Positions 13,676 through 20,901 of a DNA stretch of 35,813 nucleotides are shown here, piece by piece. A program made the position numbers and the translations under genes. This DNA is from Synergistaceae bacterium (GTDB lineage Bacteria > Synergistota > Synergistia > Synergistales > Aminobacteriaceae): assembly GCA_031280635.1 (NCBI GenBank), contig JAITGK010000099.1:1-35813 (forward strand), in the 5' to 3' direction. Position 1 is the stretch's first letter. Each line of letters opens with the position of its first letter. Under the pieces are notes generated by a model. It saw only the letters and a list, made by a program, of their open reading frames with translations, had not been told where the DNA came from and ran no database searches.

Positions 13676-14136
13676 TTCAGCGTCCTCAAACTCAGGGGCA
13701 GCCTGACGCTCATGTACCGCGCTGGGTCCCCGTTGCTGTAGAAACGCTCCTGCATGGCCCTGGTCTTGAACCCCAGACTTTTGTAGAGCGCAATGGCCGC
13801 GGAGTTGGCGACGCGCACCCTCAGGGCCAGTAAAGAGAACCCCAAGTCTGAGGCGAACTCCGCTGCCGCCACTACGAGCTGAAGCCCCAATCCTAAGCGA
13901 CGACGCTCTGGCGCAACCAACAGATTCATCAGAAGACCGCTTCCTCTCTCCTCCCCTAGAGCCGCGTAACCCAGCAGTTGCCCCTCCGCCGCAAAGGCCC
14001 CCAGGTAGGAAATACGACCCCCGCAGAGGTCACTGACAATAACCCGCTCCGGCCAGGGGTGGGGGGAAAGCTGGTCAAGCTCTAGCACTTGGCTGAGATG
14101 CTCTTCCGCGCAGAAACGGATATCCGCCAAAAACAC
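13672..14136 (-). CDS. rimI: GNAT acetyltransferase, RimI-like
   Basis: A 154-residue GCN5-related N-acetyltransferase, probably acetylating the N-terminus of ribosomal protein S18 or other proteins. The acetyl-CoA loop motif RRRLGLGLQL (motif A, about residues 78-87), the NSAAIALYKSLGF block and the YMSVRLPL end are typical of RimI. Start GTG at 14136 shares one base with the purA stop (TAGTG). The assignment to RimI rather than another GNAT rests on similarity of these blocks, since no tsaB/tsaD neighbour is present. Confidence 0.78.
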   Translation of the reverse strand: MFLADIRFCAEEHLSQVLELDQLSPHPWPERVIVSDLCGGRISYLGAFAAEGQLLGYAALGEERGSGLLMNLLVAPERRRLGLGLQLVVAAAEFASDLGFSLLALRVRVANSAAIALYKSLGFKTRAMQERFYSNGDPARYMSVRLPLSLRTLK

Positions 14137-15416
14137 TAAAGCCCTCGGTTGATGGTTTGGTTCCTGTCCGGGCCGGTACCGATCAGCTTCACGGGCGCGC
14201 CCACGTTCTTTTCAATATACTCTATGTAGCTTTGGGCCGCCGCGGGCAGCGAATCGAACGTCCCGCAGTTCGAGATATCGGTCCCCCAACCCGGCAGGGT
14301 CTCGTACACCGGGCGGCACTCCTCCAAAACGAGGGTATTGAAGCGATCCGTTTTCGTCCCGTTTCGCTCATAGGCCGTGCAGACTTTGATTTCTTTCATT
14401 CCCGTCAGAACGTCCATCTTCGTCAGGGCAATCACACTGACCCCGTTCAACCGCATGGAGTAGCGCAACGCCACCATGTCCAGCCACCCACAACGCCGCG
14501 GGCGACCTGTCACTGCGCCGAACTCCCCGCCCTTATCACGTAGGCGGTCCCCAACTTCTCCCTTGTCCTCCGTGGGCATGGGGCCCTCCCCCACCCGCGT
14601 GGTGTAGGCTTTGACGACGGCGATCACGCGATCCAGGCGCGTCAAGGGCAGCCCCGTGCCCGTGAAGCCTCCAGGCGCGGAGGTAGAAGAGCTGGTGACG
14701 TAAGGGTACGTTCCATGGTCGATGTCCAGCAGTACCCCTTGCGCTCCCTCTAAAAGGACGCGCTTTCCGCTTTCAACCGCGTCGTTGAGGAGTTCCGGCG
14801 TGTTTCCCACGTAGGGAGCCAGGTTCTTGCCCCACTCCACGGCCGGCGTCAGCACCTCATCCAGGGGCAGGGGCTTTTCGTTGTAGAGTTTGGTCAAAAT
14901 CCGGTTCTTTTCTTCCAACACTACGGTGAGCTTCTCGCGAAGACGGTCCGCGTCCAGCAGGTCCTCCACCCGCAGGCCGTTTCTCGCGTACTTGTCCACG
15001 TAGCAGGGCCCGATGCCGCGCCCAGTGGTACCGATCATACGCCCTTTGCCCCGAAAGGCTTCCTGGGCCTTGTCCAGGATTTTATGGTAGGGCATAACCA
15101 CGTGGGCTAGGGAGCTGACCACCAGGCATGCCCGATCCTGCCTGTGTTCGCGCAGCTCCTGCACCTCTTTCAAGAACTGATCCGGATCGACGACAACGCC
15201 GTTGCCGATCACGCACAGCTTCCCTGGGTATAGCATCCCCGACGGCAGGAGCTTGAAGACGACCTTCTTTCCGTCCACAATGACGGTGTGCCCCGCGTTG
15301 GCTCCGCCCTGATAGCGGACGAACACGTCCACCTCCGGCCCCATCGTGTCCACGACCTTACCTTTGCCCTCGTCACCCCATTGGGCCCCAACGAGTATGT
15401 CCACTTTACTTTTCAA
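14136..15416 (-). CDS. purA: Adenylosuccinate synthetase PurA
   Basis: A cytoplasmic GTP-dependent enzyme that converts IMP and aspartate to adenylosuccinate. The 426 residues carry the P-loop GAQWGDEGKGK (10-20), GGANAGHT (37-44), GTTGRGIGPCY near 129, EGAQG, and RRCGWLD. The first codon is TTG at 15416 with GGGAGG eight bases before it. It lies within the cell-division/envelope gene run between ctpA and rimI, so its expression is probably tied to growth. No purine riboswitch was recognised upstream. Confidence 0.97.
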   Translation of the reverse strand: MKSKVDILVGAQWGDEGKGKVVDTMGPEVDVFVRYQGGANAGHTVIVDGKKVVFKLLPSGMLYPGKLCVIGNGVVVDPDQFLKEVQELREHRQDRACLVVSSLAHVVMPYHKILDKAQEAFRGKGRMIGTTGRGIGPCYVDKYARNGLRVEDLLDADRLREKLTVVLEEKNRILTKLYNEKPLPLDEVLTPAVEWGKNLAPYVGNTPELLNDAVESGKRVLLEGAQGVLLDIDHGTYPYVTSSSTSAPGGFTGTGLPLTRLDRVIAVVKAYTTRVGEGPMPTEDKGEVGDRLRDKGGEFGAVTGRPRRCGWLDMVALRYSMRLNGVSVIALTKMDVLTGMKEIKVCTAYERNGTKTDRFNTLVLEECRPVYETLPGWGTDISNCGTFDSLPAAAQSYIEYIEKNVGAPVKLIGTGPDRNQTINRGL

Positions 15417-15431: not shown

Positions 15432-16694
15432 CTAGCTCTTCTGCTGCTCTTCAGAAGCCACGGCAGCCGATTTTAGAATTTTTTTCTTCACCTCAGAAAC
15501 CGCGCGCTGCAACTGCGCGTCCTTCACGTGGTCTTTGTTCGGATACCCCTCCACCTCAATGGTGGGCGTAAGCCCCACGTGGTCGAGCATCTTGCCCGAA
15601 GGCGTGTGGTAGCGCGCTATGGTTACGTAGATGCCGGAGCCATCCGTAAGGTTAAACAGCGACTGCACCGATCCCTTGCCAAAGCTCTTCTTGCCAACCA
15701 TGATCGCTCGGTCTCTATCCGCTAGGGCTCCGGCCAAGATCTCCGACGCGCTGGCGCTCCCCTCGTTGATCAGGACAGCCATGGGCATGTCGGTCAGGTA
15801 ACGCTTGGGGTCCGCGTGGTACTCCTCGTTGGACTTTTCGGACCGCCCCCGCGTCCCCACCACCAGACCGTCTCGCAGGAACATGCTGCTGATGTTGACG
15901 CAAGCGTTGAGCAGGCCCCCGCCGTTATTGCGCAGGTCCAGCACCAGGCCCTTGGCCCCTCGAGCGAGAAGGTCCCTCATGGCCTCCTCCGCCTCAGTGT
16001 CGCTTCTTTGCTTAAACTGGGTCAGCTTCAGGTAACCGATATCGTCCGAGAGCATTTCATACTGCACTGACTTTATCGTGACAAGCTCGCGGACCATGTC
16101 GAACTTCAGCAGCGCGTCCTCACCTCCCCGACGCACCCAGATAGTCACGGCGGTGTTCGGCTTGCCTCTCAGCCGCCTCATGACCTGATCGGCGCTCCAA
16201 CCCTGCGCTACCTCGTCCCCCACCTTGACGATCTGATCCATAGCCTTTACTCCGGCCCTTTCCGCGGGACCGCCCTCAATGGGGCCAAAGACCAGGATTT
16301 TGCCGTCCCGGTCCGCGATATACATCCCCACGCCCACGTACTGCCCCTCCAGATCGGACTCATCTTCTTTGAGCTGCTCCGGCGAGATAAAGCGGGTATA
16401 GGGGTCTTTCCAAGACTCCACCATGCCCTTAATCGCTCCATGAACTAGCTGCTCCTCCGTCACGGGAGTCTTCTCCGCGTCCACCTGGTAGGCCTCAATG
16501 ATTGACTTCGCCTGCCGCACAAGCCACAGCGATTCGCTACTAAAGGGAGATATTCTTCTGAAGTCGGCTGTATCCGCGGCTCCAGCGGCGCCCACCGCCA
16601 GTCCCCCTAACCTCAGCGCGGCCAGAAGAACGACCGCCGCAAGCGCCCCATACAGCAACAACACCTTGCCCTGAACGTTTCCCTTCATTTTCAA
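15432..16694 (-). CDS. C-terminal processing peptidase CtpA (S41 family)
   Basis: A membrane-anchored or exported serine protease, 420 residues. Residues 9-40 form a signal anchor or signal peptide; a PDZ domain covers about 112-205; the S41 protease core follows. The catalytic serine lies in NEGSASASEI (310-319) and the lysine is Lys340 in FGKGSVQ. The start is TTG at 16694 or ATG at 16688. In Gram-negative bacteria Prc/CtpA enzymes degrade LytM regulators and murein endopeptidases. Placement next to two EnvC-like genes and ftsEX suggests the substrate is one of them, which is inference. Confidence 0.93.
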   Translation of the reverse strand: MKMKGNVQGKVLLLYGALAAVVLLAALRLGGLAVGAAGAADTADFRRISPFSSESLWLVRQAKSIIEAYQVDAEKTPVTEEQLVHGAIKGMVESWKDPYTRFISPEQLKEDESDLEGQYVGVGMYIADRDGKILVFGPIEGGPAERAGVKAMDQIVKVGDEVAQGWSADQVMRRLRGKPNTAVTIWVRRGGEDALLKFDMVRELVTIKSVQYEMLSDDIGYLKLTQFKQRSDTEAEEAMRDLLARGAKGLVLDLRNNGGGLLNACVNISSMFLRDGLVVGTRGRSEKSNEEYHADPKRYLTDMPMAVLINEGSASASEILAGALADRDRAIMVGKKSFGKGSVQSLFNLTDGSGIYVTIARYHTPSGKMLDHVGLTPTIEVEGYPNKDHVKDAQLQRAVSEVKKKILKSAAVASEEQQKS

Positions 16695-16727: not shown

Positions 16728-17972
16728 TCAGGTCTTTCTCAAGTAGTTCAACGGATTTTTCGCGTTTGCCCCCTCTCGAACTTCGAAGTGCAATCCGTAA
16801 CCGGCGCCCGTACTGCCTACTGTGCCGATGATCGTTCCCGTCTGTACCGCATCCCGTTCCTTCACCTTGGTGGAGGCCAAATGAGCGTAGACGGTGGACA
16901 GGTTCCGTCCATGGCTAATGATGATCACCTGCCCGAAGTCGTCGAGCCATCCTTCATACAAGACCTCACCGGGGCCGGCCGCCCTGACCGCCGTACCCGA
17001 CGTCGCGCTGATGTCAACACCGGAGTTGAAGGTCTTCGTCTTGAGTTCCGGATGCACACTGACGCCATACGGGGAGGCGATGGGACCCCGAACGGGCCAC
17101 TCCAATGGACCGTTTCCCAAGGTGGGAGCGGGAACCGTCGGAGCCGCCGTTTCGGTCTCTCTGGGCGCGGGGAGGCGGTCTCTTTTTTGCCGCGAGAGGG
17201 CCGTAATGGTGCGCCCAATCTCCTGCTGGGCCTGCTCCATGTTCTTGGCAGCTTGTTCCACCCTCCCGCGATCCCTCTGGACGTTAGAAAGAAGCGCGCT
17301 AGTCTCACCGATGACGGCGCCGTACCTTTCGCGTTGGGAATTTATTTCTTGGACCTGCTCCATCAGTCGCGCACTGCTCTTTTCTAGATCGCGCCTAGCC
17401 CGATCCAACTCAGAGACCTGGTTCAACAGATCCTCGACCGCCGCTTGGTCGGAGCGCGCCAGCCGTCCCAGAAGATACGCGGACGTGACGGCGTCGTGGG
17501 TATTTTCCGCGGAGATCAGAAGGTGCATTTCCTCCTGTGGGCCATACTTATACATGTTGAGCAGGCGTCCCCGCAGTTCCCTAACAAGGACGCTCACCTT
17601 GAAAGCGGCCTCCTCCAGATTCGAATTCAGCTCCGTCACAGACTTCTGAAGCCTGCCCGATTGCAGTTCCAGTATCCTAAGTTGCTGTTGAGCCATCTTG
17701 AAATCCTGCCGCAGGTTTGTGAGGCGCCCCTGAAGGCTTTGGGCCTGGCGGGCTTTCTGCCCCGCCATCTCGTTATATTGTTTTATTTTTTTGTCCAGTT
17801 CGTCACGCGCTTTCTGCTGGGCGGCAATCTCACCGTCCAGCGAGCCCGGAGCGCTCCACCCTCCAAGCGGGAAGCAGAAAAGAGCCAGCGACGCCAGAAA
17901 AGCTGTGAAAAGCCTTCGCGCTATTTTTATATGGCCTTCCATATTTATATGAGCTTCCATCCAGGCTTTCAT
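16728..17972 (-). CDS. EnvC-like LytM factor with degenerate zinc site
   Basis: An exported coiled-coil protein with a C-terminal M23/LytM domain, 414 residues. A signal peptide covers about 16-41, a long coiled coil 45-265, a Pro-rich linker 266-287 and LytM 289-414. Compared with active enzymes and with the adjacent paralogue, the first ligand His is Asn316 (TFNSGVDIS) and the first His of HxH is Gly393 (GYGLHFEV); Asp320, His364 and His395 remain. Loss of ligands is the hallmark of EnvC/NlpD-type amidase activators controlled by FtsEX. The start ATG 17972 has GGAGG ten bases upstream. An 18-base tandem repeat encodes MEAHIN-MEGHIK at residues 5-16. Confidence 0.92.
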   Translation of the reverse strand: MKAWMEAHINMEGHIKIARRLFTAFLASLALFCFPLGGWSAPGSLDGEIAAQQKARDELDKKIKQYNEMAGQKARQAQSLQGRLTNLRQDFKMAQQQLRILELQSGRLQKSVTELNSNLEEAAFKVSVLVRELRGRLLNMYKYGPQEEMHLLISAENTHDAVTSAYLLGRLARSDQAAVEDLLNQVSELDRARRDLEKSSARLMEQVQEINSQRERYGAVIGETSALLSNVQRDRGRVEQAAKNMEQAQQEIGRTITALSRQKRDRLPAPRETETAAPTVPAPTLGNGPLEWPVRGPIASPYGVSVHPELKTKTFNSGVDISATSGTAVRAAGPGEVLYEGWLDDFGQVIIISHGRNLSTVYAHLASTKVKERDAVQTGTIIGTVGSTGAGYGLHFEVREGANAKNPLNYLRKT

Positions 17973-18004
17973 CGGGCCGCACCCTCCTTTGATAATTCAT
18001 CTAC

Positions 18005-19237
18005 TCAGCGTTTGAGGTAGTCTAAGGGGTTTTTTGCCGTGCTGCCAACGCGGACCTCGAAGTGGAGGTGGTAGCCTGTTGTCGTGCCAGTGTCGCCTAC
18101 CGTGCCGATGTCCACCCCCGCCCTCACCACCGTTCCCTCCCTGACCCGCGTGGAGGACATGTGAGCGTAGACGGTGGAGTAGTCCCGTCCGTGATCAATG
18201 ATAACCACCTGCCCGTAGCCCCTCATCCACCCCTCGAACAGTACCTCTCCCGGAGCGGCCGCCTTGACGGGCGTGCCCTTAGGGGCAGAGATGTCCAGGC
18301 CAGAGTGGAAAGACTTTGTTTTGAACACCGGATGAACTCGCGGCCCAAAGGGACTGCTGACGGGGCCGCGCAGAGGCCAGTCGAACATTGAGCCCCTTCC
18401 CTGCTCCATCCTGCCCGCCAGGTAGTCCGTGCCGCCCTTGCTTTCCGCCGACGTCCCACGTTCCCTTTTGCTGCGCATCAGGGTCAGGATGGTCTGCCCC
18501 ACCTCTTTCTGGGCCTCTTCCATCTCCCTGGCCGCCCTCTCGGCTAGGGTCCTTTGGCGGCGAATATCGTCCAGGTACGTGTTCGTCTGTTTCGTCATGG
18601 AGTTGTATCTCTGCCGTTCCCGATTCAGAGACTGCGCTTGGGCCTTCAGACGATCGCGCTGCTCCTCCATGGTTCGCTGAGAACGCTCTATCTCCAGCTT
18701 TTGTACCTGAAGCTGCTCGATCAAAAATTGGTCGTGCTGGGCCAACCTACCCAAAAGGTGGATGGACTCCAAGACCTCATGCGTGTCCTGGGCCGAGAAG
18801 ACCAAAAGCAGCTCCTCTGTCGTCCCATATTTGGACATATCCACCAGCCGCCGCCTGAGGGCGCGCGCCAGGTCGTCGATCTTGCCCCGCATCCGCGCCG
18901 TCTCCCCCTCCAGAGCGTTGATGGATTTCTGGAGCTTGGCGATTTGGTATTCCAAAATCGTCATTTCCTGTCGGGCCTTCTCCGTGGCCTGCTGGGACTG
19001 GTCGATGCGCACGAGGAGGTCGTCCTCTTTTTTCTTCATCTGACGGATTGTATTTTGGTACGACTCCATCTTCTGATCCAGCTCTTTGCGCCTGCGTTCC
19101 TCCGAGGCGATCTGAGCGTCCAGGTCAGGCTCCGCCGCCCAGACCAGGGGCGTCAGGGCCGAGAACCCCCCATCTAGGAAAACCGTAGCCGCCCAAATCG
19201 CCGCGAGAAACGACCGCAGCGCCCCGTGCTTCCGCAA
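18005..19237 (-). CDS. envC: EnvC-like murein endopeptidase/activator with intact LytM site
   Basis: A 410-residue paralogue of the downstream gene with the same plan: signal peptide (about 1-35), coiled coil (38-260), linker and M23/LytM domain (285-410). All zinc ligands are present: His311 and Asp315 (SFHSGLDIS), His390 and His392 (YHLHFEV). It should therefore be able to cleave peptidoglycan cross-links, or keep that capacity under control of FtsEX through the coiled coil. The start is TTG 19237, 21 bases after the ftsX stop, with a weak AAGGGG site. The name follows the family; E. coli EnvC itself is catalytically dead, so this copy is closer to active PcsB/MepM-like members in its active site. 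Confidence 0.9.
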   Translation of the reverse strand: MRKHGALRSFLAAIWAATVFLDGGFSALTPLVWAAEPDLDAQIASEERRRKELDQKMESYQNTIRQMKKKEDDLLVRIDQSQQATEKARQEMTILEYQIAKLQKSINALEGETARMRGKIDDLARALRRRLVDMSKYGTTEELLLVFSAQDTHEVLESIHLLGRLAQHDQFLIEQLQVQKLEIERSQRTMEEQRDRLKAQAQSLNRERQRYNSMTKQTNTYLDDIRRQRTLAERAAREMEEAQKEVGQTILTLMRSKRERGTSAESKGGTDYLAGRMEQGRGSMFDWPLRGPVSSPFGPRVHPVFKTKSFHSGLDISAPKGTPVKAAAPGEVLFEGWMRGYGQVVIIDHGRDYSTVYAHMSSTRVREGTVVRAGVDIGTVGDTGTTTGYHLHFEVRVGSTAKNPLDYLKR

Positions 19238-19257: not shown

Positions 19258-20142
19258 CTACAGTGGCCTCGTCGCGGAGTTCATGAAGCGTGTCACCACG
19301 ATGTAGCTACACACCCACCCCAAAGTCGCGCCGAAGCCAATGAGCAACACCCCGAACTGGGCGATAGTGCCAGGGTCTTCCACCAGGCTAAGGAAGGGCA
19401 AGTTTTCCTGCAAAAGGCGTACCCCAGGAAAGTAGGCCGACGTGATGCCTCCTACCGCGATAAGGGAGCCCAAGAGGGCCAGAAAGGTGCCTTCCAACAC
19501 GAAGGGCGTCGAGATATAGCCTCTGGTCGCGCCCACCAGAAACATGATAGCGATCTCCTCGCGCCGGGAGTAAAGGGAAATATGAATGGTGTTGTAGACC
19601 ACGAGAGAGGTTATCAGGATCGACAAGATGAACATGGCCATGGCAGCCTTGGAAGCCACCCGTGATATAGCGGCGACACGCTCCACTACCATTCCCGCGT
19701 AGACTACGTCCTCGATCTCCGGCATTGCCATCAAGGAGCGCACTAGGGGCGCCACCTGAGACGCGCTTTTCACGCGGACCTCGAAGTTCCACGGCATGGG
19801 GTTTTCCCCGATCAAGTCCAAGGCGCGGGCTTGACTGCCCATCCTAGCCTGGAGCTTCGCCAGGGTCTCCTCCGGCGAGAGTGCCCTCAGGGATGCCACG
19901 GATGGCAGCGCCCGTATTTTATCAGCGGTGGCGGCAACCTCGCTGCCCCGCTTTACGTAGGCCTGAACTACCAGCTCACTTTCTAGCTTCAGAAGCAGGT
20001 TCTGGACGTTCATCGAAAAAAGCGTCGTCAGGCCCAGAATCCACATCATCACCGCCGCTGTCACCAGGGTCAGGATACCTAGGAACCAGTGACGGAACAA
20101 AAGCCGCCCCGTGTCCCTCAGGATGTAGCTAAAGGTTGTCAT
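19258..20142 (-). CDS. ftsX: Cell-division ABC-transporter-like membrane protein FtsX
   Basis: An inner-membrane partner of FtsE that relays ATP hydrolysis to periplasmic LytM/EnvC proteins. The 294 residues show a TM helix near 20-42, a periplasmic domain about 43-165, and three C-terminal TM helices (about 168-192, 215-240, 260-283), with YSRREEIAIMFLVGAT between TM2 and TM3. ATG 20142 overlaps the ftsE end by 14 bases. The gene directly precedes the two EnvC-like genes, which fits the known FtsEX-EnvC system. Confidence 0.95.
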   Translation of the reverse strand: MTTFSYILRDTGRLLFRHWFLGILTLVTAAVMMWILGLTTLFSMNVQNLLLKLESELVVQAYVKRGSEVAATADKIRALPSVASLRALSPEETLAKLQARMGSQARALDLIGENPMPWNFEVRVKSASQVAPLVRSLMAMPEIEDVVYAGMVVERVAAISRVASKAAMAMFILSILITSLVVYNTIHISLYSRREEIAIMFLVGATRGYISTPFVLEGTFLALLGSLIAVGGITSAYFPGVRLLQENLPFLSLVEDPGTIAQFGVLLIGFGATLGWVCSYIVVTRFMNSATRPL

Positions 20143-20824
20143 CCGGCGCGTACCCCCCCGCGCGCTCGTCTCGCACGACCTTGCCGGCGTCCAGCTCCAC
20201 CACCCGCTGGCGGTAGTTGTTCACGATGTACTGGTTGTGCGTGCTCATAAGCACCGTCACCCCCGCCGCGTTGATCGACAAGAGGATCTTCATTACCTCC
20301 GCAGAGGTTCGGAAGTCCAAATTTCCCGTGGGCTCGTCCGCCACAAAAAGCGAGGGCGAGTTGGCTAGGGCCCTGGCAATGGCCACGCGCTGCTGTTCCC
20401 CACCCGAAAGTTGGGGGGGATTCATGAAGCGCCTCCGCCCCAGTCCTACCTGCTCAATCACCCTGTTGGCTCGGTACTCCACCATCTTGGAAGGCACGGA
20501 CATGGCCTCCATCACGAAGGACACGTTTTCGTACACCGAGAGGTGGGGGATGAGCTTGAAGTCCTGCGCCACCAAGCCCACGTCCCGCCGGTAGTACGGT
20601 ATGTCCGAGGCGCGCATCTTCTTGAGGTTCACGTCGCCTACCGACACGATGCCCTTACTGGGCAACACTTCCCGCGTGATCATGCGGAGCAGCGTGGACT
20701 TGCCGGAGCCTGTTGGCCCCACCACGTAGACGAACTCCCCTTTCTCAATGTCCAGGTGAACGTCCCGCAGGGCAATAATGTCGGGCTTGAAAATCTTGGT
20801 CACGCCCGAAAATTTTATGTTCAT
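20129..20824 (-). CDS. ftsE: Cell-division ATP-binding protein FtsE
   Basis: An ABC ATPase paired with FtsX, 231 residues. Walker [10 protein letters not shown] (36-44), Q-loop VAQDF, signature LSGGEQQ and Walker [10 protein letters not shown] are visible. The start ATG 20824 (MNIKFSGV) follows AGGAAAGG; an upstream in-frame extension is outside the normal family boundary. It heads the run ftsE-ftsX-envC-envC-ctpA-purA-rimI-orf-ybgC-amidase, whose genes overlap or are separated by at most a few tens of bases. An extended -10 site lies about 78 bp upstream. Confidence 0.95.
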
Positions 20825-20901
20825 TGATTCCCTTTCCTCTTTTCGACAAGCGTTTCCAAAAAACTTTTGATCCCTCCAAGGCATTCATCCCATACTCGCT
20901 T

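Follow-up and report, generated by a model that had tools for sequence, protein, structure and literature searches.

The interaction helix of E. coli amidases binds the groove of the LytM domain of EnvC. In E. coli and Vibrio cholerae, EnvC is a coiled-coil hairpin with a C-terminal LytM domain and FtsX as its partner, and one E. coli EnvC chain binds two FtsX periplasmic domains (PMC7668044). LytM (M23) enzymes such as E. coli MepM carry five characteristic residues, HDHHH. Three of them bind zinc, for example His169, Asp173 and His252 of Helicobacter pylori Csd1 (PMC5053510), while the first histidine of the HxH motif activates water and is not a zinc ligand (PMC9662197).

Dead LytM regulators depart from this site in more than one way. 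At the five columns E. coli EnvC reads -VYSY, and NlpD and ActS, which are amidase activators combining LysM with a dead LytM domain, both read N-D-H-R-H (read from MG1655). ActS keeps three of the five MepM residues, and the purified protein does not cleave peptidoglycan but activates AmiA, AmiB and AmiC (PMC8360153). The pattern described for NlpD is NXXXD, (K/X)XH, the EnvC site being lost otherwise, and independent inactivation of EnvC and NlpD has been inferred (PMC8416486). Caulobacter DipM, which has LysM domains, works in a network described as separate from the LdpF-FtsEX hub (PMC10336132). Live and dead M23 proteins can also be paired: in H. pylori, zinc-bound Csd1 and degenerate, metal-free Csd2 heterodimerise by their helical domains (PMC5053510). 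Csd1 and Csd2 are, however, cell-shape proteins with another helical domain, and what is available of that report describes neither an EnvC-type coil nor linkage to FtsEX.

Here we describe a locus of a Synergistaceae bacterium in which an EnvC with a complete M23 site is followed by one with a degenerate site. The window, that is the whole stretch of DNA analysed, comprises 35,813 nucleotides of contig JAITGK010000099.1 (assembly GCA_031280635.1). By title and abstract, no account of an EnvC duplication in Synergistota was found in the literature searched, which mostly excluded subscription papers.

The tandem EnvC locus

On the minus strand of the window the gene order is ftsE-ftsX-envC1-envC2-ctpA-purA. 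The ftsE gene (20129..20884; Pfam ABC_tran) encodes the ATPase partner of FtsX, and ftsX (19258..20142; FtsX_ECD and FtsX) provides the sole FtsX_ECD match in the genome. The FtsX-proximal envC1 (18005..19237) starts with TTG and encodes a 410-aa EnvC-type protein with an intact M23 (LytM) site; its tandem paralogue envC2 (16728..17972) starts with ATG and encodes 414 aa with a predicted dead LytM domain. On the far side lie ctpA (15432..16694; S41 and PDZ), encoding a carboxyl-terminal processing protease, and purA (14136..15416), a neighbour that served solely as a synteny marker. The original prediction had placed the EnvC pair at 16728-19237, beside ftsEX and ctpA, and we confirm it. Because the gaps among ftsX, envC1, envC2 and ctpA are 20, 32 and 33 bases, the locus reads as one operon. 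Across the tandem genomes described below, the median spacing of the two envC genes is 16 bp (57 pairs). One genome (G071, L110:4149-5363) has a 404-aa gene lying between them, with a STAS-like start and a phosphotransferase-like remainder as read by eye.

Both proteins match the M23 family (PF01551) and have the makeup of EnvC, namely a signal region, a long antiparallel coiled coil and a LytM domain. AlphaFold2 models (mean pLDDT 87.1 for EnvC1 and 84.8 for EnvC2) show a two-helix coil and a C-terminal LytM domain in each, and the top Foldseek matches of both are 8tzl (V. cholerae FtsE/FtsX/EnvC) and 6tpi (E. coli EnvC with FtsX). As the two models share these matches, fold comparison was dropped as a means of separating enzyme from activator.

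Column alignment places H311, D315, H359, H390 and H392 of EnvC1 in the five columns of the MepM HDHHH, so that EnvC1 has the full site that E. coli EnvC lacks. In the same columns EnvC2 has N316, D320, H364, G393 and H395. The original prediction had four of these positions right in each copy (H311, D315, H390 and H392; N316, D320, G393 and H395) and overlooked the fifth, the YAH histidine (H359 and H364), which both retain. It had also called the second copy zinc-site-degenerate. That description fits the change of His to Asn, which removes one of three zinc ligands, and does not fit the change of His to Gly, which removes one of two catalytic histidines; active-site-degenerate is the better term.

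Distribution and conservation in Synergistota

We searched 185 Synergistota genomes and retrieved 100 stretches surrounding the best matches: 74 came from 73 genomes of the window's family (f1), the other 26 from families f3-f8 and f10. With the window, coverage of f1 reaches 74 of 81 genomes (left out: G027, G028, G068, G088, G098, G103 and G104); the ftsEX loci of families f2, f9 and f12 lie outside the fetched set. The one contig scan reaching beyond the phylum kept 80 of 133 relatives, all of them Synergistota by title.

A single active-type gene is the arrangement in all seven of these non-f1 families, where 26/26 loci read ftsE-ftsX-envC-ctpA with one HDHHH EnvC, and in six other f1 genera (g2, g3, g6, g7, g9 and g18), where 14/14 genomes have the same order and a single intact HDHHH EnvC. 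At both fetched loci of f11, ftsX is followed by a single EnvC with no ctpA after it. Linkage to ftsX, a further mark of EnvC, is thus found in the window, at 26/26 non-f1 loci and at 2/2 f11 loci. The FtsX-linked EnvC of one f11 genome (G004, L237:4285-5517) reads HDHHY, with Tyr as its last zinc ligand position, and perhaps represents a further, separate inactivation.

Within one f1 clade, copy 2 (the orthologues of EnvC2) occurs in some form in all 60 fetched genomes. It is readable at all five columns in 55, frameshifted in one (G037), at a contig end in two (G044 and G080) and relocated in two (G033 and G099), the relocated copies being more eroded (NDCAH and NDNTH, respectively). Both copies are intact in 49 loci. 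The genes are unlinked in G033, G075 and G099; in the first two the split leaves copy 1 beside ftsEX and copy 2 beside ctpA-purA. Fretibacterium fastidiosum (NC_021038.1) is one of the tandem genomes; in this complete sequence a frameshift, either a sequencing error or a real loss, splits copy 2 (L077:2944-4103).

With 8 fragments excluded from the counts, copy 1, readable in 55 of the 60 genomes, is HDHHH in 55/55 intact orthologues. Position 1 of copy 2 is Asn in 55/55 intact copies from 10 genera; Asp is retained in 55/55, the YAH histidine in 52/55 and the last histidine in 54/55, and position 4 is G in 41, S in 8, A in 5, N in 1 and His in 0/55. This pattern of Asn at position 1 and a residue other than His at position 4 is more than chance. 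A degenerate LytM site is accordingly absent from copy 1 and present in copy 2 in every intact orthologue. A lack of conservation in relatives would have counted against the original prediction, and the occurrence of copy 2 in 60/60 fetched genomes of the clade shows the reverse. In one genome (G102, L139:2946-4187) copy 2 reads NDNSR, both the YAH and the last histidine being gone while the rest of the domain is retained.

Phylogeny suggests how the pair arose. A tree of 96 EnvC sequences, built like our other trees by a quick method with SH-aLRT support only, unites copy 1 sequences in one clade and copy 2 sequences in another (SH-aLRT 99 each); the two clades are sisters (SH-aLRT 100) and stand beside the single-copy f1 genera. 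From genus g11 this tree includes roughly one locus in five and four more; it omits rows below 330 aa and those of G070, and the L134 copy 2 reading frame, which is overlong, entered it without its first 200 residues. The topology supports derivation of the tandem pair from a single duplication in the ancestor of one Synergistota clade.

Copy 2, as judged by substitution rates, is under purifying selection, with a dN/dS of 0.057-0.272 in 13/13 close pairs. Its dN/dS exceeds that of copy 1 in 12/13 pairs, the exception having saturated dS. Within the LytM domain, the mean majority-residue frequency is 0.83 for copy 2 and 0.81 for copy 1. Outside it, the two copies differ in conservation at sites such as 46, 64, 67 and 231 (copy 1 numbering). 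Mapped by position only, these would fall in the N-terminal heptads and in the helix that precedes LytM, segments proposed to act as the switch of the restraining arm in E. coli EnvC (PMC7668044).

Copy 2, N-D-H-[GSAN]-H, fits the inactivation pattern of NlpD and ActS, which have lost the same two of five positions, the first to Asn, and retained the other three. It differs from the proteobacterial EnvC pattern, (W/X)XXX, XXY (PMC8416486); E. coli EnvC and copy 2 have thus been inactivated by different substitutions. Unlike NlpD and ActS, copy 2 matches no LysM domain (PF01551 is its only Pfam match) and has EnvC architecture and ftsX linkage. In a tree of LytM domains only, copy 2 groups with copy 1 (SH-aLRT 99), and NlpD and ActS group with E. 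coli EnvC. Because the copy 2 domain clusters with copy 1 and not with NlpD/ActS, the likeness, judged from matching substitution patterns and this tree, is best read as convergent; the tree lends no support to horizontal acquisition of this domain from NlpD. The best PDB sequence match of copy 2 is the LytM domain of DipM (7qrl), which aligns with it in having Asn at position 1, the YAH histidine and a residue other than His before the last His, and differs in its LysM domains and in a second Asn at the second position.

Candidate roles of the two copies

The original prediction placed both proteins under one FtsEX, and exactly one FtsX_ECD match is indeed present in 22 of 23 genomes tested, with none in G077, which is 79% complete. 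Given one FtsX and the 1:2 binding seen in E. coli, the two EnvC types would therefore alternate or compete, unless they are paired in the manner of Csd1 and Csd2.

We hold with about even confidence that copy 1 is an endopeptidase controlled by FtsEX and copy 2 a dead LytM regulator, most likely an FtsX-gated amidase activator. The division of labour originally proposed is thus sustained as far as an intact copy beside a conserved dead one is concerned, and hydrolase and regulator are the best reading of their roles. Copy 1, from its complete site, would hydrolyse peptidoglycan, and copy 2, by the precedent of ActS, would have lost this activity; we infer that both bind FtsX and that copy 2 activates an amidase. 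The steps are best pictured as follows. A single active-type EnvC on FtsEX was duplicated once in the clade ancestor. Copy 1 kept its M23 site and most likely acts as a peptidoglycan endopeptidase under FtsEX, and copy 2, which lost a zinc ligand (His to Asn) and a catalytic histidine (His to Gly, Ser, Ala or Asn), would have ceased to hydrolyse and been maintained as a LytM regulator. Its dead groove would take up the interaction helix of an autoinhibited AmiB/AmiC-type amidase, and this binding would free the amidase of its blocking helix, with gating through the common FtsX.

A candidate target exists in the window's own genome (G000), which has one Amidase_3 gene (C4, encoding 708 aa). Its regulatory insert aligns with that of E. 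coli AmiB: a segment bearing Glu falls where the blocking helix lies and a hydrophobic helix where the interaction helix lies, both as defined in PMC10268282. Of the PF01551 proteins found in this genome, copy 2 alone has a broken site; the remaining four, L002-L004 among them, are HDHHH. The presence of an amidase was rejected as an explanation of the tandem, since Amidase_3 occurs in 175/185 genomes, tandem and single-copy alike, and the same regulated type is present in single-copy genomes. Among the latter, G030 and G112 have only HDHHH at their PF01551 matches, and no dead LytM protein was found in them in this survey; regulated AmiB-type amidases are encoded in G030 and G170 (L325 and L329), genomes without a detected dead LytM protein. 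In such genomes either the active EnvC itself or something unseen activates the amidase. Because regulated amidases also occur in single-copy genomes, some of them without a detected dead LytM protein, copy 2 is not generally required.

The occurrence of regulated amidases in genomes without a dead LytM protein also leads us to favour an ancestral EnvC with two jobs. We propose, tentatively and as rather less than evenly probable, that a bifunctional ancestor was split, so that one FtsEX, depending on which EnvC it engages, would have as its output either the endopeptidase copy 1 or the amidase activator copy 2; the activator would have arisen separately, the NlpD/ActS pattern having converged in an EnvC body. 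E. coli EnvC needs Trp/Tyr substitutions to activate AmiB (PMC8416486), and copy 2 is without them. The amidase insert is nearly alike in tandem and single-copy genomes (24/28 regions gave a row); a change of the insert along with the tandem was considered and set aside, the differences being weak (such as an Asn-to-Asp change in the interaction helix) and confounded by descent.

Three of the single-EnvC genera, g2, g6 and g9, encode another protein in which two LysM-like stretches, recognised by eye, accompany a highly degenerate LytM domain (L199:4425-5588, L200:4556-5725 and L201:3565-4659), a possible NlpD-like activator judging from its makeup. Matches to its family (A3) at E <1e-79 occur in 3/5 g2, 1/1 g6 and 5/5 g9 genomes, with weaker ones in 3/4 genomes of family f4; in the tandem clade the best is 6e-35, with none of comparable strength among the matches listed. 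Copy 2 as a replacement of such a protein is unsupported, as no A3 member was found in single-copy g3, g7 and g18 either.

The main rival to copy 2 as an amidase activator, possible in our view but doubtful, leaves the amidase without a direct part: copy 2 would be the dead member of a Csd1/Csd2-like pair with copy 1 and, by way of the helical parts, would position or gate the active LytM domain. The H. pylori heterodimer is a precedent (PMC5053510), and the two copies share the EnvC coiled coil and are encoded adjacently, mostly 16 bp apart. Yet a single E. coli EnvC chain already binds two FtsX domains (PMC7668044), so that it is not obvious where a second EnvC would fit in one complex, and the genes are unlinked in three of the clade genomes. 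Competition of the two for FtsX, with copy 2 as a dominant-negative brake on the hydrolase, accords with the single FtsX of 22/23 genomes, six of them single-copy controls (from g2, g3, g6, g9 and g18), but a groove domain conserved as well as that of the enzyme would be unneeded in a brake; we regard this as improbable.

Greater doubt attaches to the idea that copy 2, still binding metal through its Asn, Asp and His, is a hydrolase of altered activity. Retention of Asp and the last His in nearly every copy speaks for it; ActS, with the same three residues, is nonetheless inactive (PMC8360153), the catalytic His is found in no copy and G102 has lost a further ligand, which makes this reading very improbable. 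That copy 2 is merely a decaying duplicate we find hardly credible. The faster evolution of copy 2, the frameshift in F. fastidiosum and the greater erosion where the genes are unlinked point that way, but dN/dS at or below 0.272 in every pair, presence throughout the clade and the invariant Asn largely refute it.

For CtpA, which had been suggested as a possible turnover protease, the comparison is unfavourable. In 40/40 fetched single-copy loci outside f11, ctpA comes immediately after the one EnvC gene, so the envC-ctpA linkage is older than the duplication, and its adjacency is no evidence for turnover or regulation of the pair. Pseudomonas aeruginosa has an envC-ctpA-PA5135 operon, and EnvC is not among the five known CtpA substrates given for that species, MepM, PA1198, PA1199, PA4404 and PA1048 (PMC12569750).

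Implications for dead LytM regulators

The EnvC pair is real, conserved and of single origin, and falls among known kinds, dead LytM regulators and active/dead M23 pairs; its mechanism is a matter of inference. The route by which dead LytM activators arise from LytM enzymes is unsettled, and here the live parent type and its live and dead daughters survive in one phylum. With both daughters in one operon, the step from enzyme to activator is open to direct comparison with the single EnvC of outgroups. The convergence of copy 2 with NlpD and ActS on a first-position Asn suggests that this residue does something specific in dead LytM regulators, and one FtsEX motor may run two different cell-separation tools.
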